Positions 16,801 to 64,000 of a DNA stretch of 64,000 nt are shown here, in pieces (the stretch's first letter is position 1; the number at the start of each line of letters is the position of its first letter). The notes under the pieces were generated by a model that worked only from the letters and a program-made list of their open reading frames with translations, ran no database searches and was not told the origin of the DNA. Made by a program: the position numbers and the translations under genes. Origin of the DNA: Chiridota heheva (lineage: Eukaryota > Echinodermata > Holothuroidea > Apodida > Chiridotidae); the NCBI GenBank assembly GCA_020152595.1, contig JAIGNY010003802.1, positions 1 to 64,000 on the forward strand. Direction: 5' to 3'.

Positions 16801-19800
16801 ACTTGGTGAATGTATATCAGTGTCTGGCAGTAAAGCATTTCAATCTTTTAGTGTTTGAGCAGTTAGGGAAAGAATGAGTATTTACATTAATTTTAGCATA
16901 AGGAACGTGGAATTTAAGATATCATGATTATTTCTTGTATTGATTATTACATTTGGGATTAGGTTATCATTATCAATGGCGATGATTGTTATTGATTTTA
17001 CATAGCATATGGAAGCAGATGTTCTTTCTTCTTGTTTTTAGCAGAGGACAATATGTTATTTATGACATCTTTATTTATTGTATCTATTCTATTTTATGAT
17101 AAATTAATTATTATCCACATCACCTTATCTTTCTTTGATTTTCGTTTTTGAGGAAACTGACTAAGCGCTGGTTTCAGATTAGAGAGGACAGACTGACAGA
17201 GGCACGTATGAGTTAGAGACAGCCCTGAAAGGGTTTCCCGGTTCCATGCATGCTTTATTTTGAAAACAAATTGTGAAATTATTAACATAAAATTGAAATT
17301 TTGTTGAAATGTTTTTCGATTTTGGCAAAAAATTCCTAAAATTTTTTTTTTTAAATTGACAGTGCTTTCCTGGAAAGTGAAGAATTTTCGTGGAAATTGA
17401 AGAAAAATTCCCGGAAATTAAACAAGATTTCACGAACATGCAGAAAATTTCTCGGAAAATAAAGGAGATTTCCCCCAAAAAGTCAGAGATTTCCTTTAAA
17501 TTATTGAAATTTTCACATAAAATAAAGAAAATTTTCTGAAAATAAAGAAAACTTCCTTGAAAATAAAGAAAATTTCCTGAAAATGAGAAAATTTCCTGAA
17601 AATGAGAAAATTTCCTGATAATGAAGGAAAATTGCTGTAACTGCAAGGAGAATTCCGAGAAAAAAAATTCCCATGATTTTTCCAAAGGGTGGGAAAATAG
17701 ATAAAGGCCTATTTTAAAATTGTATTGCTTTTAAAATTCATCATGGTTCCCATGCGCCCATGGCCCTGATCGATGATAAGAACTTCTATATTCTATATTG
17801 TAGATTATTGCCCTTAAAAATTTCAGTCACCTGAGTGACTGGGGGGTGCATCAATGTACATGTTTTGACCACCCACTTTTGTGCAATGACTCATCTTGTC
17901 CGGGGGTGTAGGGGTGAGTCACACAATTGATAAGTGCATTACTGCCACTGGTCATTTAGGCAATAATTATTTGAAAAGCTAAAATAACATATTTATACTG
18001 TAGTTCTGCACCTGTAGTTCTGCACCTGTAGTTCTGCACTTGTTTTGGGTTTTTTTTGTTTAGAAAAATCGAATTTTTTTATCTATCTTTTGTGATGAAT
18101 TTGTAACTTAACCTTTACTCTACCAGCACTCTTTTGAAAATGCGCTTGGGAGGCGGGGCCAAAGTTGGGGCACCCAAAACGGCGATAATATCGCTGCGTA
18201 GTAGAGTAAGGGTTAATCAAGGGCTGATTATTGAAGGGTCTTCTGTCTTTCAAGTTGGCGCATTTGTCATGGGTTGATTAACCCTTACTCTACCAGCACT
18301 TTTTTGAAAATGCGCTTGGAAGGCGGGCCAAAGATGGGGCACTCGAAACGGCGATAATATCGCTGCGTGGTAGAGTAAGGTTTAAGATATGTATTTACAT
18401 TTCATCTTTCTCTGAGCATTACATTATTTCTGATTACCTCTGCTAATGAAGTTGAAAGGAGTTATGTTTTGGCTCGCGTTTGTCTCTTTCTTTGTCTGTT
18501 TGTCATAAAGATATCTCAAGAACTGATAGTTGGAATATTGACGGAGGATATGTTTTCGCCTGCGTTTGTCTGTTTGTTTGTAAGCCAACAAGGTATCTTA
18601 AGATATGATAATTGGATTTGGATTAAATTTTGTGTGTGTTGTGTTTGCTGCTTAAGGAAGAGGTGAATAAAATTTGAAGACATTGGAAGAGGGGAAGGGC
18701 ACAAATAGGAGGATGGGGATGATTTTTAATAAGATTTGTCAAGACTCGTAGTTTGAACTTTCCAATAGAATGTGCTGAACAATGAATTCATGCCCTGAAA
18801 GGATTTTCAGACAATCCATTTTTCCTGGACTCAAAATAAAATAAAGTCTGGTGGTGGGGTATCGAAGAAAATCAAAACAATTGTTTTGGCATTTATAATA
18901 TTGGAAAAGAATGGAATGTGAATCTTGTCTGAAAATAACTAGAACAATGAATGCTTAGCCTGAATAAAACTGAAAACAATGAAGGTAGATTTCTTTGAAG
19001 TGTCTATAATGCAAATTGCAAATACTGATTAAAAGTGAAGAAGAGATTTGGGGATAAAACTTAGTGGGTCTAGGATTTCTGAGATAGATTATATTGGGGA
19101 TGTGGGTGAACTTTTTTCAAAATATTTTGCATGTTTGAATTATCAAGCGGGTGAAGGTACGCACTCCACAGAATGCTAAAATTCTAGTTTCTTTTTGCAT
19201 TCATAGGTAGTGGAGGCAGAACAGGCAATTTCTAGCCCCTTTGTGACCGCCATTTCCAGTACTGAGTTAGATGCCAAGTTTTGGTGCACGTTTTGCTCAC
19301 AGGAGGTTGTAAAGCACAGCAGCCAGGGAGAGGTGGTGGTGCATTTCACCAACTGGATTGAACATCTTTGCGGGTAGGAAGCTAAGGAAATATATTGTCT
19401 TTTTCAGTTTGCAAAGTCTTGGTTTTTTCTCATTTTGTAATTTTGTAGCGATTCTTGTTCCTTTAATATATTTATATTATGTTTTACAGAAAGAATTGAC
19501 AATTGACACAAAGTAATTTATATCTTACCATCTAGAGACAACTCCAGGTAAAGTATATTACAAACCATGAAGGTAGCAACAATTTCCATCATAATCATTA
19601 AAAAAAAAAGCCCTGTGTCAGCTTTTGAATCTCAGCATCTATTTGCAAATTTGTGATGTATTACAGGAGTAAAGCTATCTTGGTATTTTCTTTTGTAAAT
19701 GCGTATGTTTTTTAAATGTCTATCACTCTGCCACAATTCCTTGGAAGTGGTGCACAGCAATACCTTATAGCATTTGCCAATTGTGTGATTCACCCTACAC

Positions 19801-22800
19801 CCGAGGAGAAGGTGAATCATTGCACCAAATTTTCAGGCTCACCATTCGTGCCAAGCTTGACTATGGCAATATTGTTTACTGTGTCGCTCACAACTCATAC
19901 CTCAACCACATTAACACCATCCATTAACACCATCCAAAATGAAGCCCTCAGGCTTTGTCTAGGAGCCTACAGGACCTCCCCAATCACTAGCCTTCATGTT
20001 GAAGCCAACGAACCCCCCTTTCTACTTAGATGTAAAAAGCTTAGCCTCTCCTATGCTTTTAGAGTCCTCACCAACACCCAGAACCCTGTTTACAACCTCA
20101 TTAGGTACCCCAATTTCTCCTCCCTCTTTGATAGGACTAAAACCCTTTCGCCCCCTTCAGCTTACGATTAAATCAGACCTCTTTCAACTTGGCATCAACC
20201 CCGCCACTCGGCGCCTATTCCTGGCCCACTTTTCCGCCTTGGGCCACCCCCCTTCCTTCTGTCCACCTTGACCTCTCCACTTATAACAAATCTCAAACTC
20301 ACCCTAATCTCTTCATCAATCTCCACAACCAAATCAAAGACCAACTCTCAAATTACACCTCCATCTATACTGATGGCTCCAAGGAAGGCAACAAGACAGC
20401 TGCTGCTGCCATCATCCAAGACATCACCCTCAGTAGCAGACTTCCTGACCACTCATCCATCTTTTCAGCCGAGGCTAAGGCCATTCTCCTCGCCCTCAAC
20501 TTTATTGAGTACTCTCCTCTTAGTCACTTTGCCATTTTCTCTGACTCAAAGGCTGTTCTTACTTCATTACTCAATCTTAAATGGGATAACCTCACCTGCC
20601 ACCTCCTCCTCCGGAAACTCTTTTCTCCCACCCTCTGCAGGAAAAGTGTTCTTTTCTTCTGGATACCCAGCCATGTTGGCATCCCTGGCAATGACAGGGC
20701 TGATACAGCCGCTAAGCTTGCCCTTAACCTCCTCCCTTCCCCTTTCCCAAAACCCTCTCTGACATCAAACCGCTTATCGCTTCTCTTGTTCGTGACCGCT
20801 GGCAAACCTTATGGAACTTCCAAATTGATAACAAACTCCATGTTATCCAGCCCACAATCCCGATCAAATCCACCATTAACAACCTTTCTCGTGACGACAA
20901 CGCTCATATTACCCGCCTTAGAATTGGTCACACCCACCTCACTCACTCCCACCTCCTTATTGGTTCCCCCAACCCCTCTGTAACAATTGCCACTGCATCC
21001 TTACAATCCATCACGTTCTCCTTGCTTGCCCCCTGTACAACCTTCCCAGAGCTTCTCTCGCCCCCACAACTCAATTGCTGAGTTCTTCCAAAAAAATCCT
21101 CCAGATAAAATAGTCTCCTTCCTCCAGCATGCATCCTCTACAATCATATTTAATCCTCCTCTTCCACCCCCTCTCTACTCTGTTTTTAGTTTTACCCATG
21201 CACCTCCTCTCTCGATCACAGCTTTCTGGCTTTTGTTCTTGAATTTCTCTCATTCTTCCCCTGGTCTCTTTCCTTACTACCTCTAAAATGATCTGACCTC
21301 TCAGGCACAATTTGACCTTCGTTGTCGTGGTGCCGTTAAGACCTCATCAAACAAACAAACAAACCAAGGTGGGTCACTAAAACATGTACATTGACGTACC
21401 CCTCAGTCACTTAGGTGACTGACATTTCTTTTGAAATGACTCACCACAAATCACACACCTGTGCAAAGTGAATTGGTCTGAATTAAATTTACACACCTGA
21501 GGTCACTCTGGTAAGTGACAATTTGGTACATTGATGCACATGTGTGTCACTGTTTCATATGTCAATGACTGGGTAGGAGGGGTGATTTATACAACTGACA
21601 AGTGCATTACCATACTCGCAATCAAATTCAAGCAGGAAAAGACTTGCCTATCATTTTCAGTGATTGAGATTTAGGAGTGAAATTTGAAGACTCACAGTAT
21701 GTTAAGATTTTGAGGTGTCTGCCATGTCATACATACATACATACATACATACATACATACATACATACATACATACATACATACATACATACACACACAC
21801 ATACATACATACATACATACATACATACATTCGTTCATCCATCCATCCTCTTTGGTCTTCAATAGGTGTAGTCCTGTTGACCGGTCGTATCGTGGTGTCA
21901 TCACAATCCAAAATTTGGTAACTTCACAATCAAACGTACGTGAGGTTTGCATAAGGAAAACATTCCCAGCAATAATGTCCTTACAATTATAAAAAAAAGT
22001 CATAAACAACAAATTTAGCATAAATTGATAATTGATCAAAATTTGATCAGCCATAGCCTAAAAACTAAAAGTACCATTTTTAGAATTCACTTTCTCTCCA
22101 TCCCCCTATCCCACCTCTCTTTTTCTCTGTGTTCTGACTCAAGCACCTTAGTCTTTACACATTTCTTGCAGTGCCGTTAAACATCAACAAACCAAACCAA
22201 ACCAAATCATCGAAAAAGTGATCTGTTCAGATTTAATACCCTTTTGACCAAACTAGAAATTGTTTCATGTTATATGAGTTTTGAATAATTTCTTCCTCCA
22301 TTTGTTTCATTGTCCTTTATGACATTTAATGGATGGCAGAGAATGGGGTGTCCGTGACCAAGGGCGGATCCAGATTTTTTTTTTATGGGGGAGGCAAATT
22401 TGAACTTAAATGATGATCATTATGTGTTTGATGCAATTTATTTGCCGCCCTTGACGGCATTGTGCACACAAAGCGGCATGGGGGCCAGGGGCCGTTTGAG
22501 GGCCCTGGTGGGGTTTAGGGGCAAAGCCCTGGTAAGGGGCACAGGGGGCGAAACCCCAGGAAGCTCTGAAGATTCTGTCTCTTTGATGCTCCCAAATGGA
22601 CATTTGGTTTCAAGTTTCCCTGAACTCGATTTTTCTTTTGAGGTTTATGTTGAGGGGAAAATCATAACTTATATATCTTACTTTTTGAGAAAGAGAAATG
22701 ACAGCACACTGTATATTTGAGATTATAGATATTTTATCTGTATAGTTCTTCACAAAATACAAAAGCATCAACTTGAATTGTATTGATTGGGTTATATGTT

Positions 22801-25800
22801 ATGAGGGGCAAAACGGAGGTCAGTCCGCAGTCACAAAAACCTTTCCAAGATTGCCAAAACAAAAACAAAAAATTTAAGGGGGGGGGGGTGCCCCCCGCCC
22901 TCTATGGATCCACTTTTGTCCATGACATGGTCATATTTTGTAACAAAATTTCATTGTCCAAAAATCTGTGACATTTTGAAGATTTTGTGATAAAATGAAC
23001 ATACACAGATGTATCATTAATTGTCTGACATTTTGTGACATGTTTTACCCCTTCACCCACTCTTATTGGTAATTTGATGTTGCATTTTAGTGGTGGATTT
23101 CATTTTTCATGAGACAAACATACAGTAACCAAGTGATCCTTTCTATGAGTATCACCTTCCAACTGGTCATAATGTGTGAATCTATGCCATTGAAATGTGA
23201 CAAAGGCAAAACTGATGTGACATTCTGTGCAAAAGGTGCCAAAAATTAGGCGACATTTGAGACATTTATGTGACAAATTTGAAATTTTGTGACGACATTT
23301 TGTGACAAGCCATCAGTCATCACTTTATTCTCTGGGATTGCCGTCTTACCACTAAACTCACCCTTGAATCTGATTTTAATGAAGGCAGACAGTAAAGGAA
23401 AAAACTGAATGTACAGATTGCAGATTATGACATTTTTGGTTGTTCAAATAATTATATGAAGTGTACAGCTGCGTACATGTTTTATTTATTTTTATTTACA
23501 GTATTACCCATTCCAAAAATGTGCACAAATTTTTCTGGACAAATAAACTTGACCATCAAAAGAAAGTTAAATACAAACTGAGTGCAGAGGATCTACAGGA
23601 CTTTCAAGCCAAGGTTGAAGAAGCTCATAAGAAATATGTGGAGGAGAAGAAAATGCAGCTTAAAGCAGTAAGTGTCCATGATCATGTGGCATGTGCGTCT
23701 TGAACTTGTTACACAACCATTAAAATGTTGCTCTATTGTTTCCATCCTGCAGCAATCATAACGTTGCAGTAGGCATGTAGTAAAATGATGGTTAATCATT
23801 AAAGAAATATTCCCATGGATTTGCATTTTTTAAATATGATAGAGAAAATTTGTAGAAACAAAGTGATAAAAAAAACTGTTGTTAATATCCTATTCTGTTT
23901 AGAAGTTATAACAATTTAAAACGTAACAAAATGTTCTTTCACCTTCTACAGTATACTGTATGTCCTTCAGCATGGTGATGTCATGAAGGCAATTCCAGCA
24001 CAGTTATGTATTTCTTATCAATTTAATTACACTTTTTTTACATTATTGAAGAACATTTTTGATTCATTATAGAGATAGGTGGAATATATAATTTACAAGA
24101 AAACATTTTGTTTTTTCTTGGTGTACATCACATTTACAATGATAAAAAATCCAAATCATTTTCAAAGAAATACAAAAATTTGTTGTTGAAATTGTCTTTA
24201 TGACATCACAGATGTTGCCAATCAAGTCACTTTTGTTCAAATTAAAAATACTCTAAAATTTTGTAACTTCTAATGGAATAAGATATAAACATAGTTTTTC
24301 ACCACTTTGTTTTGAAAAATGTTCTCTGTTATTAATGAAAAAATAAAAATCCATGGGAATATTTTTTTAAAAGATATTTTCAGCTGTTTGATGAGTTTCA
24401 AGTGATTTGGATCTGCAATTATAACAACACACTTATAATTTATACCTCAAGGTCACTTTACAACAAACTGGTGAAATCTCATAAATAGAATAAGATATCA
24501 ACATGGTCTTTACACCAAACTGTTTCTTTGCTAGTGTACTATCATATATTTGAAAACAAATAAAAAATTCCAGGAATATTCCTAAAAGATATTGATGTAG
24601 TTCTTTGGACCATTGAGCTAATCTTTTAGCTTTCCCTAATTTCCTTCCAGATGTAAATTTGATCAAGACAGCAACAGGTTTTATCAAAGCTTATGGTTGG
24701 GGCAGGAGGAGGGGGACATGTCTTCGCCCTGTTTGTCTGTCATCAAGATTTCTCAAGAACTGAAGATTGGATTTGGATTTAATTTGGTGTGTGGTTTTGT
24801 TACTGCTCACGGAAAAAGTGATTTAAATTTGAGACATTGGAACAGGGGAAGGGTGAAAATGGAGGTGGGTAATGTTTTTGCCTATGTTTGTTCGTCTGTC
24901 ATCAATATATCTCCAGAACTGATGATTGGATTTGGATTAGATTTGGTGTGTGGTTTTGTTACTGCTTACGGAAGAAGGCATTGAAATTTGAGACATATTG
25001 GAACAGGGGAAGGGTGAAAATGGGGGTTGGGGACATGTTTTTGCCTATGTTTGTTTGCCTGTCATCAAGATATCTCCAGAACTGATGATTGGATTTTGAT
25101 TATATTTGGTGGGTGGTTTTGTTACTGTTTCATGAAGAAGTGATTAAAATTTGTGACTAATTGGAACTGGGGAAGGGCAGAAATTGAAGGGTTGGGATGT
25201 TTTAGGATGAGATCTGTCAAGACTAAGTTGTCAAGACTAAGTTGTCAAGACTAAGTTCAAACTTTCCAATGGAGTGTGCTGAACAATGACTTTGCGCTCT
25301 GAATGAAAATCCGAACAATCAATTTTCTGGACTCAAAGAGACTTATGTCAAGTGTTCTCTGGAATTAATGAAAATAAAACAATTTGTTTCTGCCATGAAT
25401 GGAAAATGATGGAATGTGAATCCTGGCTGAATAGAGCTTAAACAATGATGCTTTACCTAAATGAAACTAAAAACAATGGTATGGCCTTAGAAGAAATACA
25501 GTCAGAAGCTAATCTTGAAGTGTTTAGATTGCAAATGTTCATTACAGATAAAAACGGGATGAATCTTGATTTGCTCTAGAGAGTGCTAATATTCTAGTTA
25601 TGTAAGAGATGCTGCTATAAAATTTAAAGGAATTTCCATTTTCATATATATATGCTAGAAAGAAAGATGCTACAGAAACAATTTGGTGTAAAAATCTTGT
25701 TGATATCTTTTTCCGTTTAGGCCTTTTTGCATTTCAAAAAATGCGCCAGTGTGTTGAAAAGTGACCTCACAGTGTAAAATGTGATGTCGTAAAGGCAGAT

Positions 25801-40559: not shown

Positions 40560-41235
40560 TTTTGTTGGCATCCCTGACAATGACAAGGCTGATGCAGCCG
40601 CTTAGCTTACCCTCAACCTCCCCCCTACACCTTTTCCTAAAATCCTCTCTGACATCAAACCCCTTGTTTATGACAGCTGGCAAACCTCATGGAACTCCCA
40701 AATTGATAACAAACTCCACGTCATCCAGCCCACCATTCCGATCAAACCCACCATTAACAACCTCTCTTGTATCGACAACGTTCATATTACCCGTCTTAGA
40801 ATAGGTCACACTCACCTCACTCACTCCCACCTCCTTAGTGGCTCCCCCAACCCTCTGCAACAATTGCCATTGCACCCTCACAATCCATCACGTTCTCCTT
40901 GTTTGCCCCCTGTACAACCTTTCCAGAGCTTCCCTCGCTCTACACAACTCAATTGCTGAGTTCTTTCAGAAAAATCCTCTAGATAAAATTATCTCCTTCC
41001 TTCATCATGCTTCCCTCTACAACTGTATTTAATTCCCCTCTTCCACCCCCTCTCTCTACTTTGTTTTTGTTTTAGCCATGCACCTCCTCTCACAGCTTTC
41101 TGACTTTTTGTTCTTGAATTTCTCTCATTCTCCCTGTTTCCTTTCCTTTCTACCTCTAGAGTAATCTGATCTCTCAGGCACAATTTGACCCTCGTTGTCG
41201 TGGTGCCGTTAAGCCCTCATCAAACAAACAATTAA
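40560..41235 (+). pseudogene. I/Jockey-like LINE 3' end, second copy
   Basis: The copy starts in the last RNase H motif (GIPDNDKADAAA, with an in-frame stop) and follows the 3' part of 19831-21366 to the same tail (CGTGGTGCCGTTAAG then CAAACAAACAA). Strong 5' truncation is typical of LINE insertion. It sits about 1.4 kb downstream of the CENATAC stop. Confidence 0.75.
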
Positions 41236-41296: not shown

Positions 41297-42335
41297 TTAG
41301 TTTTTAAGTTGAATGTTTAGTTTGCCGTAAAAATTGCACCCACTGAACGATAAGGGAAGCTGATCTTGCGATGTATAGTTAGGGCTAACAATGTTAGCGC
41401 TGGTGGTACAAGGCCTGTTGTTATTAACGTTCAGGTTGAAAGTGTTGCTAGTGTTACTAAGTCTAACGCTGGTGCTGTTGTTATTTCCGACAGTTTTACT
41501 CATGGTCAGAGCATATAATAAGAACTGCTTCTGACTGTTGATAAGTTTATTGGTGTAGCTCCGTACACACGCCTCATTTTTGTGGCCAGTGACCGCCATT
41601 ATTTGATGAGTATTTGTCCCAGCTTGGTCTGGAACAATGATGTCGTTGCCTTTATGCAGTGATTTGTATATTTGCATGACAATTCTGCATCACAAGATAT
41701 CTTTGACATCATTTTTGAAAGTGTTTTCTCCCCCACTGGAGCATTGGTGAACCATGGGTTATTGTCTGAATTTGGTTTCTCTGTTTTTGGCCATTGAAAA
41801 AAGCGACATACAGTTTGAAGGCTGCAACCGACATGTCATTGGTGAGTTTTATCCTCATACATTCGTCTAAACTGATGCTGCTTGTCAGATGTTGCCCCTG
41901 GGTGGTTCTTGTCTTTTTCGTTGACAGCCAGCTCTATGTATTCTCTCCCATCATCATCTTTTTATTCCTGAAGGATTTTCTTTGCACTTCTCTCTGTCCT
42001 TCTCTGCCTTTTCTCCCAGAGTAGAAGCTGACGTCAAACCAAACCTTTCGTAGCAAAGACAGTGGGTCCTTGCAAGACAGAATCTTTAACTCTTCCAACT
42101 TTTCAAATCAATGTCATTTATGGGCTCATGGTGCTTTGTAGTATGCTTGCTTGATGAGACCCACGAACATATTGATTGCTTGTCGAAATTCTCGATCCTG
42201 GATTATGTTAATGGGTCGGTTCCAGGGATTGTCAGTTATGTGCCGGTGGATCGCTGCTCTTTTCCATGCCAGAGCAGACTTACTGTACTGCCCCCCCATT
42301 CTTGTTACATTATTCTGCATAGAGTGTTCTAAGAA
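41297..42335 (-). pseudogene. Crypton-type tyrosine recombinase remnant (DUF3504-like)
   Basis: On the - strand the order is: RMGGQYSKSALAWKRAAIHRHI and NIIQDREFRQAINMFVGLIK (42320-42126); a frameshifted stretch with FYSGRKGREGQREV and MYEDKTH (about 41990-41830); ENTLSKMM-like and LSCKYTNHC words near 41690; and the C-terminal catalytic block HQIMAVTGHKNEACVRSYTNK (about 41600-41540) ending LSFSGCNFYGKLNIQL. This is the layout of Crypton/DUF3504 proteins, which use a tyrosine recombinase fold and have domesticated relatives (ZMYM, QRICH1, KCTD1 families). Several frameshifts make it inactive. Confidence 0.65.
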
Positions 42336-45835: not shown

Positions 45836-46932
45836 GATGGAGGCAAAACTGGGTTTTATCCTGGCTTGGCTGCCAGGTCAAAATTTCCACTCACTATATC
45901 GTCTTGGTCCATTGTTTCTCCTTGGTCTAAATTGGCCTTGTTGTGTTTGGACAGCTTTAATCAAGTCCTCGATTTGTTTCTGCTGGGCCTTGATCTGCTC
46001 AGTTTGCTTCTCAACAATTTTGGCTAGTTGACTGTCTGCTCTCACTTCCTCAGCAGCCCCATACCTTGTCCTACTGGTTGTCTGTTTCGTTGCCTTTCCA
46101 AACCATTCAAGAGCTTGGTCTCTTGCTTTGGAAGAAATTGATATCTGGCTTCTCTAAATTAAGACGCCGCAACTCCCTCCGGAGGCCTTCATCTCGTGCA
46201 GCTTCAGCCAATCTCCCTTTGAGATTCTTTCCTCTGCAAGGTTGGAAGGAGGGATCCTCTGCAAGGTTGGAAGGAGGGATCCTCTGCAAGGTTGGAAGGA
46301 GGGATCCTCTGCAAGGTTGGAAGGAGGGATCCTCTGCAAGGTTGGAAGGAGGGATCCAGCTGAACAATACGGTCATACAGATCCACCAGCTCTAGGGAGC
46401 AAGCTATCAGGTCTTCGCCCTCCCTCTGCCTGTACGAGAAAAAACGCTGTTGTAACTGGGCTAGGCTCTCTCCCTCACTAAACACTTTAGAGAGAATGCT
46501 TAGAATCATCTTGGGGTCATTTAGGATAGCTTCCCCTGGTCCTGCTATCTCCCTCCTGGCTTTTCCTCCCAGGTGGTCTATTATGAAATTTGCTTCTTCC
46601 CTGCTGCTGAGCCTTCTGGCAGTGATCTGTCCTCGAACATCCCTGATCCATTCCTCTATTGTTGGATCTAAGGGTCGCTGTGGCCTGTCTCTGAAGCGTT
46701 CGACTTTCCGATCCGTTGAAACATAAACCAGCTGCTGTATCGGAGAAGTAACATTTTCCGTTTCAGTGTCTGATGAAGCGGCATCTCTCTTTAGGGCCTC
46801 AATCTCGGTAGCAGCTTTAAGGGACCTAGCCCGCTCCCTCTCAAGGGCCTCTTTGAAGGACAGCAGTTCGAGTTTAAGGTTAATCAACTTTAGACATTTT
46901 TTAACATTCACTTTAGCGTTTACGATAAGCAA
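45836..46932 (-). pseudogene. Ty3/Gypsy-type gag fragment
   Basis: The frame from 46932 reads a coiled-coil-like N-terminus, then RKVERFRDRPQRPLDPTIEEW, LSSREEANFIIDHLGGKARREI and IVQL, a retroelement capsid-type (PNMA/Gypsy gag) pattern. A 25-bp minisatellite (46235-46355) then scrambles the frame. Downstream pieces continue as LAEAARDEGLRRELRRLNLEKP (about 46200-46135) and QTEQIKAQQKQIEDLIKAVQ (about 46000-45940). No protease or reverse transcriptase follows; pogo sequence begins instead. It is a broken copy. Confidence 0.65.
46235..46355 (-). repeat. 25-bp minisatellite inside gag, five copies
   Basis: CCTCTGCAAGGTTGGAAGGA plus GGGAT is repeated five times almost exactly. Because 25 is not a multiple of three, translation cycles through three frames, giving the alternating PSFQPCRGS, LLPTLQR and IPPSNLAED peptides. 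Confidence 0.9.
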
Positions 46933-47030
46933 AATGGATCCTACCTCAAATGAGCCTCACAGCCTTATTCACCAGCAGCCTTTGTACCCAAACCATGCTG
47001 TCTTGAAGAGGGGTTTCAATCTTGACACAT

Positions 47031-53595: not shown

Positions 53596-54061
53596 ACTGA
53601 ATTGAAGTTGTATGAAAAATTATTTTTCTGACATATTTTCTGGTATACATCTCCATCAAAAATTTTCAATATTATCTTCATTCATTTTTATCCTTGAAGA
53701 TTGATATCTAAAATTTTCTCTGATATGAGATTCTTGAAAAAGAGTCTGTATTTGTGGAATGAGTAAAGATATTATAAAAAAATTCCCAGGAGATAAATCT
53801 TTCGTCACACAAGGTTGGTTACAATGAGGACATGGTGTTGAGTCATTGACATCAGAATCATAAATACAAACTGGCTGAAAGAACATGCATTCCCAATAAT
53901 TCGTTTACAAGCTGCAGAAGATTTACCAAAGCTACAGCCGGAAGCGAATGCCTCATAACAAAGGACAGTATCATCAAAATTGCTTCAGCTTTTGATGTCT
54001 GAATGCCAGGAAAAATTGGCTCATTCAAACTCCCATCGCAATCAAAGAAGTTTGAATCTAC

Positions 54062-55122
54062 ACCTTGATCACCTTCACTATTTTGATCACCTTCACCTTC
54101 TTGATCTCCTTCACTTTCGTGATCACCTTCACTTTCTTTATCACCATCACTTTCATGATGATCACCTTCACTTTCTTGATCACCTTCACTTTCTTGATCA
54201 CCATCACTTTCTTGATCACCTTCACTTTCTTGATTACCTTCACTTTCTTGATCACCTTCACTTTCTTGATTACCTTCACTTTCTTGATTACCTTCACTTT
54301 CTTGATCACCTTCACTTTCTTGATCACCATCACTTTCATGATCACCTTCACTTTCTTGATTACCTTCACTTTCTTGATTACCTTCACTTTCTTGATTACC
54401 ATCACTTTCTTGATCACCTTCACTTTCGTGATCACCTTCACTTTCTTTATCACCATCACTTTCATGATGATCACCTTCACTTTCATGATCACCTTCACTT
54501 TCTTGATCACCTTCACTTTCTTGATCACCTTCACTTTCATGATCACCTTCACTTTCTTGATCACCTTCACTTTCTTGATCACCATCACTTTCTTGATCAC
54601 CTTCACTTTCATGATCACCTTCACTTTCTTGATTACCTTCACTTTCTTGATTACCTTCACTTTCTTGATCACCTTCACTTTCTTGATCACCATCACTTTC
54701 ATGATCACCTTCACTTTCTTGATCACCATCACTTTCTTGATTACCTTCACTTTCTTGATCACCTTCACTTTCTTGATTACCTTCACTTTCTTGATTACCT
54801 TCACTTTCTTGATCACCTTCACTTTCTTGATCACCATCACTTTCATGATCACCTTCACTTTCTTGATCACCATCACTTTCTTGATTACCTTCACTTTCTT
54901 GATTACCTTCACTTTCTTGATCACCTTCACTTTCTTGATCACCATCACTTTCATGATCACCTTCACTTTCTTGATTACCTTCACTTTCATGATCACCTTC
55001 ACTTTCGTGATAACCTTCACTTTCTTGATTACCTTCACTTTCATGATCACCATCACTTTCGTGATCACCATCACTTTCATGATCACCTTCACTACCTTGA
55101 TCACCTTCACTTTCATGATCAC
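54062..55122 (-). repeat. 18-bp coding minisatellite, about 59 units
   Basis: The + strand unit GATCACCTTCACTTTCTT, with variants (GATTACC, CCATCAC, TTTCATGATC), runs about 1.06 kb. In the transposase frame it encodes Glu-Ser-Glu-Gly-Asp-Gln variants (ESEGDQ, ESDGDH, ESEGNQ). Two imperfect insertions add three bases (CATGATGATCACC near 54157 and 54463), keeping frame. Because the unit has no stop in several frames, long false frames also run on both strands; those are not genes. Confidence 0.93.
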
Positions 55123-55524
55123 TGCTGTCTGCATCCTGAAAGTCAAAAGGAGGTTCTTGATAGTTGTCATCACTGTCATCATTATGAGTTTCCTCAGCTT
55201 CATAAAAGACATCATAGGCAACTCCATTTGATGGGTTTATTTCAAGGTTTGAATCATCAGAACTGTCTGGAAAGAATAGGTTATTTTGTGACAAACCAGT
55301 TGCATCCGAGCTGCATTCATCACTCGCTGTTTTTATTTTGTGTTAAAATGTCCTCTTCGATTACTTCACTTATACACTAAAAATTCTTTTATTGTTGTTT
55401 CAGAAGTGTATTTGGCATTTTTCCCCTTTGTTATTTTTCCAAGTATGTCCACCCCAAGTAAAGCTCCCAAGTTGAGTAGCTTAGGGAAGTTGGTTGTGTG
55501 CGCTAAATTATTTTTAGCTAAAAA

Positions 55525-56075
55525 TTAAAGGCACTGGAATGCTTGCACCATTCCAACTTCTGGAATTTCAACTGGAACTTTTAAGATGGCAACCACATTT
55601 TTTGAATGAAGAAGATCATTTTTCACAGAGTCCTTATGCTCAGAAGATTGTTCATGTTTCTTTACTGTTTGCAACCTAATCCTCACGCTAGGCGTTGTAT
55701 TCCACACAGTGCGACCAAATGGGGTTTTGTTGTATTTTTTACAAAGAGTACAATACATGCCCTCGTTTTCTTTATAAATTAGTTAGGGTCGATTTTTTTT
55801 CCATTTCAGGTAAAAATTGATGGGCAAGCTTTTTATTTTTATGAAGAACTAGTTCCACTGGTGACGGTGTGTATAGGCTTGATTTCCATGTCCAACCCAG
55901 ACCCAGCAGTACAGCTGCTTTTTCCCATCCCCATAGCTACCACTGCTGCGCTAGTGGATTCCCCATGATCATCCGCTTCACAATCACTTGTGACAATGTG
56001 ATCACTATTGTGTTCATCATCATCAGGTTTTTTTTTGCGTTTTCCAAAAAAACTAGTGATGGTTGATTGAGACAT
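55525..56075 (-). pseudogene. hAT-like transposase N-terminal fragment (KIAA1586-type)
   Basis: A frame from 56075 starts MSQSTITSFFGKRKKKPDDD, like many hAT-derived genes that begin with a short 'ITSFF' peptide. After a break, 55758-55525 encodes MYCTLCKKYNKTPFG...W...RIRLQTVKKHEQSSEHKDSV, a C2..HH zinc finger of the TTF/BED-like kind before hAT catalytic cores. No catalytic domain follows; the EnSpm N-terminus comes next. It is probably a truncated element. Confidence 0.5.
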
Positions 56076-56079
56076 AATT

Positions 56080-57950
56080 CAACAAGTTTAAATTCCAATT
56101 TTCAACAAAAAAGCTAACACTCCATTCCAAAACTTTCCAAAATTTTGCTGAAAAGTAAGCCCCGCTCAATAAAAACAGTTTGTCACATGCAGACGTGTGT
56201 CCACAACAACACGATGCAAACACACACGCAATAACCAACACCATGCACATTAATGCTATATAAAAATTCACAAACATATGCCCAATACGCTGCGCGGGTT
56301 ACACACAAAATACTGAAATATGACCTTCAACTTTCCGGCTGCACATGCGCAAAGCAATGAATTTGAGGAAATTCACAATGACGACTTGATTGGCAGTCGC
56401 GGGGTGGAGCGTTCATTGCTTGTTGAGTGCATTGCATATGCAGTATTGCCGCAAGTTTATCTGATTAGCCTCTCATTATGCAAATTACCCGTTGCATATT
56501 CATATAGCGAGCGCTCAACATGTAATCAATGGAAGATTCGCCCTGCGTCTGTCGGTCAGTTACACACATTGTGGATTAGGCCTTCGTTCACCTGGTAAAC
56601 AAGCTACAACTCGGGCCGTTTTTCACGTTATTTTGTGCTGACGTCGTGAAGAATGTACCAAAAAAGCAAGGTTGAAGTTCTCCGGTAAAGATATGGTAGC
56701 GATCAAAAGTTAGAGGATTTTTAGGTGATCGTTTGGTCTCTCTCCCATACATATATCATATACCGTAACATTAGGACATTTGTCCCTATCAGTGCAGTGC
56801 TTCATTATGATCGACGGTCGATAACGTTGTTGTTGTACGTCGGTTTGGTAACTTCGACTACCAAAAAAATATGTTAAACGGCGAAACGAATGATTTTCTT
56901 CATTGGACGTGAAAAAATGTTAACTGTCACATATTTTATCATAAAATATTGTTTGCTTTCTTGATAATCGTTGGTTTTTGCAGTAAATTTGTGCCGGTCG
57001 CTAGGTTGTTTTTTCACACTTTGTGCTGGTTGTACATTGCAAGTGCCGGTTTATCCCGACCGGCATGGCTAGAACACTGCCCATGCTATAACTGCTTTTT
57101 AATTTTGAAAAGAAATAAGTGAAGAGGACTCTTCTTTCTTCATCCTGCTTCTTCTGTACAACTGCACATCCTTCCAATGAAAAGCACAAAAAAAAAAAAA
57201 AAAAAATATACCTAATTATGGCAATTAGTAAATAGCTGTCAATGTATATGACAGCTATGTATACCTAATGCTTTTAATGGGACCTCCTATTGTGTTAGTC
57301 TGGTCAAAAACTGATCACGTAAAATAAATGTCCGGTGCAATTTATTGCAGTATGTACTTCTTGTCATTCAGAATGCAAAAAAGATTTCGAAAAATCACAT
57401 TGAATATTTCCAGGTTACAGTAATTGGCAGGCAAATTAAAAGATGATAATACTTCTGAAATTTATAGAACACAGTTTCAATGCTTTACAGTGAAACTATA
57501 AACCATCAACAATAAGTCAAATTCAACACTGGTTTTCCTAACAATTTGGTTTAAACCTGTAAAAGGAAAAACAGGATCACACTTTCAGCTTTACTGCCAT
57601 CTTCTCTTTTGTAAAATTCATACCCACTGTATACTGTCCCTATGAAATTAAAAACTTTAAAGAAGGTAATCTTATCAGCCTTTTTAAGAAATGAGAAATG
57701 GATTAAAAAAAATATGATATAAATTAAAACAATTAAAAAACTAAATTAATGAAAAAACTTGAGAAAATAAGGTAATGTAAAAAGAACTAATCAAAAAAGT
57801 TATGAAAATTTGTAAAAAGAATGGAAGATGGTTATTTAGATCATTAATAAGTAATCCACTATTAACAAATGTTAAAAGCATAGTAATGTATTCAAAGAGT
57901 TGATTATAAAAATAGATGAAGAAAACGAAGCAGAAACAAATGATAAACTC
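56080..57950. other. Intergenic, no gene recognised
   Basis: A CpG-containing stretch (about 56280-56600) lies upstream of the hAT-like fragment and could be its promoter or end. The remainder is AT-rich with an A-run near 57189. I see no coding motif. Confidence 0.4.
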
Positions 57951-57959
57951 AACACATTC

Positions 57960-58400
57960 TGAACTAGAATGATAGCACTCTGCATAACGCATACCTCCGC
58001 CCTCTGTTAATTCCACATTTAGAATATAATCCACCACAGAAATCCTGGGCCCACCAAGTTATAATCCAAAACAATCTCTTTCTCACTGTAGATCTACATT
58101 TTAAACACTTCAGGATCTACCCAATTATCATTGTTTGCACATTCAATTAGAATCCATTTGAGAGTTTTAACTATATAATGACAGATCTTATCCTAAAAAC
58201 CCACCCTCCACTTGTGCCCTTCCCCTCTTCCAATGTCTCAAATTTTATTCACCTCTTCCTTAAGCAGCAAACATAACACACACAAAATTTATTCCAAATC
58301 CAATCATCAGCTTTTGAGATATCTTGATGGCAAATAGACAAACAGACCAACAAACAAACAGACAATAACCTCTGTCCAACTTCATTGGCAGAGGTAGATA
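57960..58400 (-). repeat. Dispersed repeat family C, inverted copy
   Basis: The sequence contains CTTCCTTAAGCAGCAAACATAACACACACAAAATTTATTCC and AATCATCAGCTTTTGAGATATCTTGATGG, ending CAACTTCATTGGCAGAGGTA. This is the reverse complement of 18437-18700. It has a CTAGAATGATAGCACTCT end near 57963. Confidence 0.6.
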
Positions 58401-58931
58401 TTGAATGAACAAATCTTGTATACATTTCAATGAATACACCTCCAAGCAAAGAATTACTTTTATTCTTAAATGACACTTTCTTTTCCTTTTATCTACATGT
58501 AGTAAACTATAAAAAGTGATTTTAAAAGATAGCAAAGGGAGGATATAAGTTAGACATTTGTAATGATCAATGATTTTCAAAAAATTTGACCTAGTTAATA
58601 AATCAGCAGCATCAAATGCTGAAATTGGGGTATCAAACTTTAGAATTAACAAGTTATTCCAAATTTATCATTTTACCAAAAACTCTTTCTAAGTTTATGT
58701 TAGGCAATAGTGAGATCAATATTCTAAGAAATGAAAGTTCATGATTTGATGAAGTTCTTGCATAGACTTGTCACTTGATGTTTAAATCAAATTACATACT
58801 TTGTGCCTTACCAACACAGGTATGTCTATTACTTTCCACGGCAGATAACAAACATTTGAAAACTCAAAAGCGCTGTAACTAAAGTAATCCTGAGTCTAAC
58901 CTTGAATGGATCGGTACTTCTTTATCACATG

Positions 58932-59804
58932 CTAAGTGGGTTGTGCGACTTCTGCCAAATTAAATCCTGTCAATGGTGCTGGCAGATTATTACAAGATGC
59001 ATTTAGTTTAGTTGTACATTCTTTTGCATATTTTTGAAAGTTTTTTCCATGGGTTTCTTTGAAAATGCCATTCATATTCATGAATGCATGGACCATCGCA
59101 TGAACCAGGGTTCTATAGAGTACATTGTGATCTTTGATAACATCTCCTCGAAGCAGGATAAAATCAAAGCCATCTGGATGACTTTGATCTGTCATGGTTA
59201 AGCTCATTGTGTGGTCATTTGCCCATTGGAATGACTTCCTCCAACTGCGAAGGACAGCTATTTTACCGTGAACATTCGGAAACAGGTTGTCGAATGCAAT
59301 GAGGTTTATGCTGTCATACAGCTTTTCTGCCAGTTGTTGTTTTTCTGGAGAAACTCCACACTTCTTTGTTACAGCCTCCAGTTCCTTCAATGTTTCACCA
59401 ATTTGTATTCTTTTGCTGACAGCATTGCAACCTTCTGCCTGATGTTTACGCTTCCTGCATAACCTACTTAAAAACATGCCAACTGGCACATTGCCCACAC
59501 ATTCTGCGTGAAACCACTTTCGACAAGAATCACACTGGACCATCAACCTCCCATCATCGGGTCCTCGACAGGTACAATAAATATTAAATGAAAATGATCT
59601 ACATTTTTGTGATTTCTTACATCCATTAAGTCCAATCAATCCAATCTTTCCACTGGAGAGGCAAGTAATCAATTCATCAAACATCACAGATTGTTTAAAA
59701 TTAATGCAAGCTGGATCCTGTTGATGGCATAAAGCAATTGCAAATGCCAAAGAAAGCACACCACATGCAGTTCCACCTGTTTGTTGTGTGACATCCATCA
59801 CCAC
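58932..59804 (-). pseudogene. ULP1-like protease C-terminus, partial PHD and SprT-like domain
   Basis: Residues 1-60 of this 290-aa frame carry DVTQQTGGTACGVLSLAFA, the Gln and catalytic Cys14 end of a ULP1/C48-type peptidase. Residues 77-105 (YCTCRGPDDG...CDSCRKWFHAECV) are the first three metal pairs of a PHD finger; the final C-x2-C is missing. Residues 155-265 follow SprT-like metalloproteases: a LYDSINLIAFDNLFP start, a W-containing strand, TLVHAMVHAF and THGKNFQKYAKE. The metal-binding His pair (235, 239) and a third His (252) are present, but the catalytic Glu of HExxH is Ala236. The frame lacks its own upstream half, which lies in another frame up to 60020. Confidence 0.65.
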
Positions 59805-59814
59805 ACAATCAATT

Positions 59815-60022
59815 TTCTTGTCATTAGAGAAAAGAAGAATGCTAATATTTTGTTAAATCTGAGAGGATACGTTGGCCCTATCAAGCTGTCATAGACCTTC
59901 ACTTGTGATCGCTTGCATCCAATAGTTGACACTGTGATCCAATGATTACAAAAGTGTATGATTTGAATAAATTCACCCGCTTCTATATCAAAACCACATG
60001 GGGCCTGACTTTTACATGGGGG
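59815..60022 (-). pseudogene. Middle of the ULP1-like protease domain, between frames
   Basis: A stop-free frame not starting with Met reads GFDIEAGEFIQIIHFCNHWITVSTIGC (His at about 59943) then QVKVYDSLIGPTYPLRF (Asp at about 59890). These are the His and Asp of the C48 catalytic triad. The block continues the 59983-61926 frame after a single-base slip and reaches the 59804 frame after another. Confidence 0.7.
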
Positions 60023-61926
60023 CTGAAGTCCCCAATAAATGGAAATTTCTGAAACAAAAGATCTTGTCCAGCCTCGATGATACTATCTGTTAAGCACTGT
60101 CTCTGTTTTAATATATCATGTTCACGTGTTGTCAATTTTAAAGTTGGTATCCAATAATCCTCGCATTTTATCTCTGTCTCCACTGAAGTAAGATCCACAA
60201 GTGGGATGGCTTCATCCTTTACACTACATCTTTCTGAGGAAGAAACTTTTGCTTTGGAAAAAGAATTAGTCGTAACATTCCTGTGCTCTGGTCTCCGTCC
60301 ACTATGTTTGTGTGAAGTAGATATGTTTGTACTTGCATTTGAATCAGTTGACTCAAAGATTGATGAAGATGGTGCAGTTGATAAAAATGATGTCACAGGA
60401 TATGCTTCAGGTGGTACAAATAATGGCAATGTTGATGATGATAGAAATGATGGTGCAGTTACTGGACGTGAAGACGATGATGTGGTGGTTAATAAATGTG
60501 CTTCAAATGTTGACTTTGTTGATGAAATTGGTCCTATGGGTGCAAATAATGGAGCCACTGAAGGAGTAGGTTTAGATGATGTGCATGATGTTGCTGTTGG
60601 TGCTAAAGGGGGAAGATTAGATGACTGCAGATGTGCATCAGGTGAAGCTAAATCTGTTGCAGCTGTCAATGTTGGTTGGCTATTTGATGTACCTTCATCA
60701 TCTGAATCTGAGTCAGATAAATCCTTGAGTGGATCTACAACATGACAAATTTGTGAGTGGGTGGGAAATTGATGTTGACTGTTGACATATCTAGGCAGCT
60801 GGGCTCTTCCAAACATATCGATGGTCACAAGATATCCAGTCTTTTGCTCAATATTACTCACTTCTCTTGTATTGATATCATTGTTGTGTAAGTCCATAAT
60901 GTGGCGGTGCATGAAAATCTGTCTGACTGGGCCCATTTGTGTAAGAAAGTGGTTGTTTCGGTTTATCTCTTGATTGAGCTGTTCAACCACTTGAGTATTA
61001 TAAAATCCATATAGCTGTGGCACATGCGTAACTCTCCTCAGAATTTCCACTTGGCGCTTGCTGTTTTTTTCATGAAAGCGATCAAACAGGCAGTAATGTT
61101 CATTGCATCCTGTAACTGGATGTGTGTTGTCAGGCACTTCTTCACTACAAATATTGTTCTTCAACCAAAGCATATTTACACACAGTTCCTTTTCCTTGGC
61201 TTGTTTAAGGTACTCTTCTCTTACTGGAGTCAGCCGTCCTTCATTAGGACCAAACATATTTGGGAACCTATTTTTAGCATGAGTGGCAACCATATGTGCC
61301 ATATCAACGATTGTTATGTTGGGCAGATGCTTAAAAGATGCCAACATATCCACATAATCTCTGGGGCTTTCTGCTGGTATAACATATTTTAGTCCATACA
61401 CAATCCCATGTGGACAAACTAATGATAACCAACCTCCTGAGTTTCCCCATGCTTTAGTAAAAACTTTGTTGAACATGGAATCATCTGCTGAAATCACTGC
61501 ACGAATTGATTTGACGATGTCATTCTTTGACATTTTAGCAATGCCACGAATCCCGAGACCTTTTCCAAGTTCTTTTAGGTATTTTGAAGTGCTGTTGTTG
61601 AATAACTCAAGCAATCTCTCCTCCGACATGTCATGCACCTCAGCTTCTAACTCTCCAGTGGATATGTTGACTTTCTTGTACTCAGAATTAACTAATACAT
61701 TCCCTTTTCTTGTTTTTGGTGAAATATAAGGTGCCCAATTCTTAAAACCAGGCTTAACAATGAATGGGTTATTAATGCCTGTTTTAAGCAAACCAGCAGC
61801 TACTTGATTGCTCTCCACTTCTTCCCAAAACTTCTCTGTGTCTACTAACTCACTTTCAGGGTTATCCTCTGGTAAGGGCATATCTTGTACATTGCAGTGA
61901 AAAGATCCCTTTCTGTTCAGATCCAT
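59983..61926 (-). pseudogene. KDZ-like transposase core and start of ULP1 domain
   Basis: The 647-aa frame starts MDLNRKGSF, whose Asp2 probably is the first catalytic acid. Upstream, the same frame reads FNCVICGFHPSVLI, so the Met is not the true start. Core motifs: FWEEVESN, PFIVKPGFKNWAPYI, LVCPHGIVYGLKYVI (169-183), ESPRDYVDML (186-195), VDMAHMVATHAKNRFP (207-222), GRLTP, HPVTGCNEHYCLFDRFHEKN (269-288) and FYNTQVVEQLNQEINRNNHFL (308-328). A Ser/Thr/Pro-rich linker (about 400-560) leads to YWIPTLKLTTREHDIL and FPFIGDFSP, the beginning of a ULP1 domain. The frame ends at a slip in a C-run. Confidence 0.7.
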
Positions 61927-63407
61927 GATAAGAACTGAAGGATGAAATCCACAAATGACGCAATTGAATTCATATCTACATTACACATCGAAACAAAATG
62001 CAGATAAGCACTTAAGAGTGTGCTTGATTTAAGCTTGGAATCAAAAGTTTTGTTGATGCATTCAATCTGACTTCCAATGGCTATGTGTGAGGAAATGCTT
62101 TTTTCCATAAAATCCAGCAATTCAAAGGTTATCAGCAAGAAATCATTAAAATTATGTACACCATCAGTAGACTCCTGGTAACGATATGGCAATAAACAAT
62201 GTCCACATTGTTTGACATATATTGAGACTGATTCTACAATACCACGTAGAGTAACTATTTTACCTTTAGAAGTGACAAGAACTGGCTCTGATAGTTGCTG
62301 CTTACAAAAATGGCAATGTGTTTCAACAGGAAAAAACTCTTGCGGAAAATCCATTTTTTTCTTCATGCTATCAGCTAAAGGATACAAAACTCTTTTTTTA
62401 TCACGTAAATACATTGTCATTTTCTTAATAGTATTCCCATCTTCAGGGGGATAAATCATGTGTTTTAAATTCAGTAGAGTGTCGTTACATGGTTCTTCCT
62501 CTTGAAAATGTTGAGTATCAGGTAAAATTTCATCACTTCCATCCGCTGCTACTACAATAACATCTTTATACGATAAAAATGATACATCCCCACCATTCTG
62601 TGCAATATACCATATGACCATGGCTTTATGGACACATGACCTCTTTCGTCTACAACAGGCACAATCCAGTCTTTGTTCTTTGGTATCAAATGTTGCAGTG
62701 CACCGTTTCAATTTTGCGTAATCATGGACATAACCATCAAAAAGAGAAAAGTGATGGTACCTGTCATTCCCATCACAAGGGTACTGGATGACTGCTTGTT
62801 TGTGTACCTTGGTAGCTTTGTTTCTTAACTTCATTACCTCCTTCATTCTTTCTGTCGTTAAAATTTTGTAGGGGCCTGTTTCTGATAAATCATTTAGCAC
62901 ATCATCCTGTAGTTGAATTTCTGCTGGCTCTGGATCACACTTGGAAGCTATGGACAGATGATAGCATTCAAATGACCTAAAACAAGATCTCCCTGCAATG
63001 TCTGCAGCGTTGATGCATTCTTTTTGTTCGCACAGAAGTACTTGCTCCTGCACCCCACAAATCTTCTTCTGTACATGGCATGGATAGTTCACTCCTCTTG
63101 GGGCTTTAAGAACAAAGTATACACCCTCAGCACTATCCACACAGATACCAAACTTTTTGAATTCAATGCTGTGAATGTTCTTGTGGTGTCTGAGTAAACT
63201 ATTACGTTGCATTTGCAAGCCACATATTTCACAGGAGACAGTGTCGTCAACGCGCTTTCGTATCTTCAAATTCATAGCAGGCACTCTTTCCTCATTCTCC
63301 ACTGGTCCTTCATCTTCTGATATCTCATCTGGAACTAACACATCCTCATCTTCTGTCTGGCCCATTCTGTCCTCCTCTTTAACCTCTTGTTGGCACACAC
63401 TCACCAT
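61917..63407 (-). pseudogene. N-terminal zinc-finger and CxC-cluster part of the KDZ protein
   Basis: The 496-aa frame starts MVSVCQQEVK after an acidic leader. A C2H2 finger lies at 59-79 (C59, C62, H75, H79). A SWIM-like cluster follows at 249-260 (C249, C251, C258, H260), within YHHFSLFDGYVHDYAKLKRC. A second cluster has C365, C368, C401 and C404 (HCHFCKQQ...VKQCGHCLLPYRY). These resemble the CxC4 and CxC5 modules linked to KDZ transposases. The last ~15 residues are out of frame: the family-like FNCVICGFHP continues in the next frame, placing a one-base shift near 61970. Confidence 0.7.
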
Positions 63408-63825
63408 TTCTTACTACTTATATATGACAAGGATGGAAATCCCTTCATCTTCCAACACTTCACAAGATGAGATTAGAAGTCAATTTTCCTGTGAAGTGTT
63501 CTGTCACACACAAAACAGTGATAATGTGATGCTAACGAATATGATGTGCAATCCCTTTTACAAGGGAGACAATGTATACCATTAAAGCTCACCTAACTGG
63601 TGCTTTTCAATGGGAAACTTTGTGTCTATTCATCCTAAGACCTTCTTTGCACAGAGGAGGCATTCTTCATCATCCACAATAATGTCGTCTTCTTTGAGAA
63701 CCGTAGATCCTGTGAAAAAAATATTGAACACTCTTGCAGGAATTATTCATATTTATTCTAATTAGATCATTTGATACTGTATTTAATATAAATAATCCAA
63801 AATATGCAAACTATTCTTACAAATT
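63408..63825. other. Upstream flank of the KDZ-type element
   Basis: About 400 bp has no conserved coding motif. It may hold the promoter and end of the element. I found no matching inverted end downstream of 58932. Confidence 0.4.
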
Positions 63826-63828
63826 ATG

Positions 63829-64000
63829 GAAAGGACCATTAATCAGAGACTAAACTGGTTTCTTGAGACCAACAGAATCCTCTCCCCTGACCAAAGCGGC
63901 TTCCGTTACCCTAGACCAGTTAATTACGCTCGACACCGCTATCCGGGAATCCTTTGCAAAAAAGGAACACCTCATATCTTTTTACCTTGAGAAAGCTTTT
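63829..64000 (+). pseudogene. I/Jockey-like LINE reverse transcriptase, cut by window end
   Basis: Translation reads RTINQRLNWFLETNRILSPDQSGFRYPR, then after a one-base shift QLITLDTAIRESFAKKEHLISFYLEKAF. This is the segment of a non-LTR RT that precedes and begins the catalytic D-x-x-K-A-F motif, with the Asp apparently replaced or lost (YLEKAF). The family could be that of 19831-21366, but the two pieces do not overlap in the window. Confidence 0.65.

Follow-up and report, generated by a model that had tools for sequence, protein, structure and literature searches.

The region 58932..63407 on the minus strand of a contig of the holothurian Chiridota heheva probably represents a decayed transposase gene from a large KDZ-like (Zisupton-type) DNA transposon, residing in a repeat-rich genome. 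The window, i.e. the whole stretch of DNA that was analyzed, comprises 64,000 nucleotides (JAIGNY010003802.1, positions 1 to 64,000). The broken coding region runs through four overlapping frames from the first ATG (MVSVCQQ...) to the final stop codon, and extends over 4,476 bases or about 1,490 codons. As judged from its sequence, the protein ends in a SprT-like metalloprotease, which is an unusual module and lacks its catalytic residue in this copy. The SprT-like addition is possibly a new domain variant.

The minus strand of 58932-63410 contained four overlapping frames that were free of stop codons, in the following order: 497 codons (61917-63410), 665 codons (59983-61980), 94 codons (59798-60082), and 306 codons (58932-59852). 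The reading frame shifted three times, near 61966, 60035, and 59855. The longest frame of 665 codons compares with a maximum of 212 and a median of 114 codons in 500 first-order Markov sequences that were built from the region and had the same composition. The G+C contents at the three codon positions were alike across the four blocks, i.e. 0.49/0.32/0.34 for the block in the 497-codon frame, 0.47/0.40/0.31 for that in the 665-codon frame, 0.47/0.43/0.38 for the third block, which comprises only 53 codons and is the shortest and least similar, and 0.47/0.38/0.33 for the block in the 306-codon frame. Read in order, the four frames give a single protein of about 1,490 residues with three frame changes. 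Because adjoining frames overlap, no introns were evident over the 4.5 kb of coding region. The frame changes resemble small indels more than they do introns, as the frames overlap and the similarity to Peptidase_C48 spans a break. In addition, the Peptidase_C48 score rose from 15.6 bits to 20.4 bits once the pieces were joined, and this speaks for a single original frame. A preliminary description of this DNA had proposed a single polyprotein of about 1,490 codons. The length and the order of the frames agree with it, whereas the three frame changes are at odds with one intact frame, and no sign of cleavage into separate products, as the term polyprotein would imply, was found.

In the predicted protein, the zinc cluster CxC4 (PF18717) was found at 62034..62354 (minus strand), with 47 bits against a Pfam cut-off of 26.9 (E 2.9e-12). 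Of the two zinc clusters named before, CxC4 is borne out, whereas CxC5 had no Pfam match. Neither the KDZ profile (PF18758) nor CxC5 was matched by any of the four frames at E up to 1, nor by the 407-residue core at E up to 5; most weak matches are dropped by the HMMER filters, and a divergent KDZ member could escape detection. Integrase families were likewise unmatched in the four frames (Pfam, E up to 1). A C2H2-like motif, SCEICGLQMQRNSLLRHHKNIH, at 63171..63236 and a SWIM-like motif, CxC-x6-CxH, at 62625..62666 (both on the minus strand) were discerned by eye, in a region for which no Pfam family was found. The putative DDE transposase core, at 60964..61965 on the same strand, was delimited by three acidic motifs, namely LIMDLNRK (within 61909-61965), TIVDMAH (within 61288-61320), and VVEQLNQE (within 60964-60990), which by eye provide plausible D, D, and E residues. 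All these motifs were read by eye from known patterns. Within the core, a possible helix pair resembling Rho_N/SAP (61504..61614, minus strand) matched with E 0.0084, below the Pfam cut-off, and the unrelated DUF674 reached a better E-value (0.0072) on the same piece of the core; the Rho_N/SAP-like match may be due to chance. Weak Pfam matches to E7, DUF674, Rop-like, and PSI_PsaE were also set down to chance. A linker rich in Ser, Thr, and Pro (60200..60740, minus strand) connects the core to the protease module. For the proposed KDZ transposase, CxC4 is present and the KDZ profile is not matched. Since PF18758 did not match, formal membership in the KDZ family is not established, and the label KDZ-like is suggested by CxC4 together with the acidic motifs read by eye.

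The module that resembles ULP1 (Peptidase_C48) was located at 59712..60035 on the minus strand, where it spans two frames, with a marginal profile match at about 59712-59962. The 94-residue frame alone yielded 15.6 bits (Pfam, E 0.015), and three pieces joined by X at the breaks yielded 20.4 bits (E 4.9e-4), which is just under the cut-off of 20.7 and was obtained without a shuffled control. The X-joined piece matched no solved structure at E up to 5. Three motifs typical of ULP1-like proteases were recognized by eye on the minus strand, i.e. a His motif at 59927-59950, an Asp motif at 59882-59902, and a Gln/Cys motif at 59757-59786. As controls, eight of ten shuffled or reversed sequences, four each of the 94-residue frame and of the SprT-like module, were scanned at E up to 0.1. 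None of the four derived from the 94-residue frame matched Peptidase_C48, and none of the four derived from the module matched SprT-like. However, two of the eight matched other families by chance, with E-values of 0.034-0.064, and therefore the single-frame match to Peptidase_C48 (0.015) and the Rho_N match (0.0084) weigh little when taken alone.

The PHD finger at 59493..59582 (minus strand) was detected clearly above the cut-off (PF00628, E 3.1e-8, 33.9 bits against 24), as had been claimed for a chromatin reader. The match, at 59493-59576, covers only positions 1-29 of the 47 positions of the profile. When the 306-residue frame was compared with solved structures, the 60 listed of 79 matches all fell on the PHD region, and the PHD fingers of DIDO1 were the best among the matches listed. 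One of the last cysteines appears by eye to be Ser, and thus a cysteine of the PHD finger has probably been lost.

The SprT-like module occupies 58935..59456 on the minus strand, and the stretch 59004-59171 matched the Pfam profile PF10263 above the cut-off, in line with the domain assigned before (E 5.6e-6, 26.6 bits against 25.6; 27.8 bits with the module alone). Among 177,635 solved sequences searched at E up to 10, the sole match of the module was SPRTN (6mdw) with E 1.3, and the alignment lies over the active-site helix. A fold model computed from the one sequence only was poor, with a mean pLDDT of 41. The site, within 59082-59111, reads HAMVH...H, whereas the family has HExxH, the Glu of which is the catalytic residue. 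In SPRTN, the E89Q variant serves as the catalytically inactive form (PMC6375733). In summary, the previously noted order of CxC4, ULP1-like (marginal), PHD, and SprT-like holds.

An explanation that we regard as unlikely is that the SprT-like end is a captured or neighboring host fragment, which is in frame only here with a transposon gene encoding CxC4, ULP1, and PHD. One copy was examined, and with the catalytic Glu gone the module bears no sign of kept activity. In addition, no transposon bearing SprT was found among the literature matches listed, as judged from titles, the starts of abstracts, and term counts, with the founding Zisupton and KDZ papers outside the scope; a few of these matches contain both SprT and transposase terms, and their titles are on other matters. 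However, the SprT-like module, the PHD finger, and the Cys motif of ULP1 share the common 306-codon frame, which is devoid of internal stop codons and ends in its own, and the similar codon-position composition of the blocks also argues against such a local accident.

The copy is decayed and its protein is broken. It is unlikely to yield protein as drawn, because of the frame changes, the HAMVH sequence, and the defects of the PHD finger. The three frame changes could in principle be assembly errors in an intact frame, which would be compatible with the other explanations and would fit the occurrence of stop codons only past each frame change. Nevertheless, we deem this improbable, because the catalytic Glu of the SprT-like module and probably also a cysteine of the PHD finger are substituted, which indicates decay and not insertion or deletion errors alone.

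The interpretation as a KDZ-like transposase gene was compared with known systems. KDZ/Zisupton elements occur in fish, fungi, algae, and nematodes, and the CxC4 cluster, the Pfam title of which names KDZ transposases, is common to their transposases and the present protein. Long proteins are another common feature, with up to 1,400 amino acids for Zisupton of Pristionchus (PMC9297572) and over 1,300 for KDZ in general (PMC12477816). In contrast, the present protein is devoid of a PF18758 match and no ends were found, and it looks intronless, whereas Zisupton is described as multi-exonic (PMC9297572). Accessory functions are reported to be common in KDZ elements (PMC12730594, PMC12477816), some of which carry TET/JBP dioxygenases (PMC12730594), and an F-box domain was noted in one isoform of a Zisupton protein (PMC12062965). 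The words SprT, PHD, and ULP1 do not occur in the searched texts of PMC12730594, PMC12062965, PMC9297572, and PMC12477816. The pair of ULP1 and PHD on a transposase is already known from Ginger1, which represents another transposase type: the Ginger1 transposase has a C-terminal Ulp1, and that of Hydra Ginger1-9 (Ginger1-9_HM) carries Ulp1 as well as PHD (PMC2836005). The core of Ginger1 is of the Gypsy-integrase type, a match that the present protein does not show, and the term SprT does not occur in the Ginger paper (PMC2836005). With SPRTN and other SprT-like proteases, the present module shares the profile match and the alignment of the site region with 6mdw. It differs from them by HAMVH, in which the catalytic Glu is replaced, and by its placement behind a PHD finger on a transposon-type protein.

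By analogy with the respective families, the zinc clusters would bind the transposon ends or chromatin, the DDE core would cut and join DNA, and the PHD finger would tether the complex to histone tails. The ULP1-like protease and, in any intact relatives, the SprT-like protease might trim SUMO and protein, either from the transpososome or from silencing complexes of the host. The present copy is incapable of these functions as read. A tentative and somewhat doubtful extension is that it is a dead relic of a KDZ-like lineage of animal transposons with a fixed C-terminal ULP1-PHD-SprT cassette that strips SUMOylated silencing or transpososome proteins. If this were true, a single transposase would combine a cysteine protease of the SUMO type with a metalloprotease like SPRTN. 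The handling of SUMO-marked or protein-crosslinked DNA, as proposed in the preliminary description, is unsupported for this copy, because its frame is broken three times and HAMVH is found instead of HExxH. DDE/RNase H-type transposases cut and join DNA without a covalent protein-DNA intermediate, and therefore the crosslink idea is also weak in principle. A function in crosslink repair is speculative, and the clearing of silencing factors or of complexes that are not covalently bound would seem more plausible. A role of ULP1 in transposition has already been suggested in the Ginger paper, and the proteases on transposases described there are of the cysteine type and act on ubiquitin or SUMO (ULP1, OTU, C19 peptidase; PMC2836005). 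If the SprT-like module turned out to be conserved within a transposon family, these would be joined by a metalloprotease of the type that frees DNA of bound proteins, and transposons would seem to borrow this strategy from the host. With one broken copy to go by, this amounts to no more than a lead.

The boundaries of the element were sought in the flanking DNA. On the left, a copy of a dispersed repeat (58179..58351, minus strand), which is also found near 18564-18717 and 24730-25219, probably bounds the element. On the right, a possible reverse transcriptase fragment at 63796..63990 (plus strand) was noticed by eye; its RVT_1 match (E 0.05, 13.7 bits against 29.6) ranks below an unrelated family in Pfam. 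If these two are the bounds, the element lies within about 58352-63795. Zisupton has been described to have terminal inverted repeats and an 8-bp target duplication (PMC12730594), and target duplications were not detected for Pristionchus Zisupton (PMC9297572). A search of 55500-64000 returned 228 inverted-repeat pairs, and no convincing terminal inverted repeats were among the 25 listed of the 228. A joint search for ends and an 8-bp duplication gave a best score of 11, which was equal to the best of six mononucleotide shuffles of the flanks; with 7 bp and 9 bp the best scores were 12 and 9, respectively, neither with a null, and the best eight were considered for each length. A 20-nt pair, 58607-58626 and 63760-63779, was rejected, as it was without a matching 8-bp duplication by eye and one among 228 pairs. 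No ends of the element were found by these searches. No tRNA or Rfam family was detected in the window. No relatives of the 306-, 665-, and 479-residue frames were found in viral contigs, none of the 306- and 665-residue frames in prokaryotic genome contigs, and none of the 306-residue frame in phages (tblastn); the collections were viral and prokaryotic, and these results are therefore of little bearing on an element from an animal. A multidomain gene of the host or a processed pseudogene of such a gene, perhaps transposon-domesticated and not mobile, would account for the failure to find ends, for the host-type domains SprT, PHD, and ULP1, and for the unmatched KDZ profile, but is quite improbable in view of a CxC4 cluster named for KDZ transposases, three frame changes, repeat-rich surroundings, and no evident introns over 4.5 kb, though the multi-exonic Zisupton differs in this last respect too.

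The window is repeat-rich and contains further retroelement fragments. A LINE-type element is the probable source of the reverse transcriptase frame at 13533-14912 (minus strand; RVT_1, E 7.3e-32). For 20141-20983 and 40563-41231, a retroelement RNase H frame was recorded (E 2.7e-11), and the stretch 20674-21358 is repeated at 40563-41231 with 86% identity. The end of an open frame at 41297-41689, for which Pfam gave no match up to E 5, resembles a tyrosine recombinase by eye (TGHKNEACVRSYTN). About 58 tandem copies of an 18-bp unit, encoding repeats of the type SEGDQESEGDHE, fill 54064-55122; this array sits in a 494-codon open frame on the minus strand (53858-55342), for which no Pfam family was matched up to E 0.1. 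Lastly, a PNMA/Gag-like frame at 46204-46956 scored 24.3 bits against a Pfam cut-off of 25, and it enters a perfect 25-bp tandem repeat at 46230-46357.
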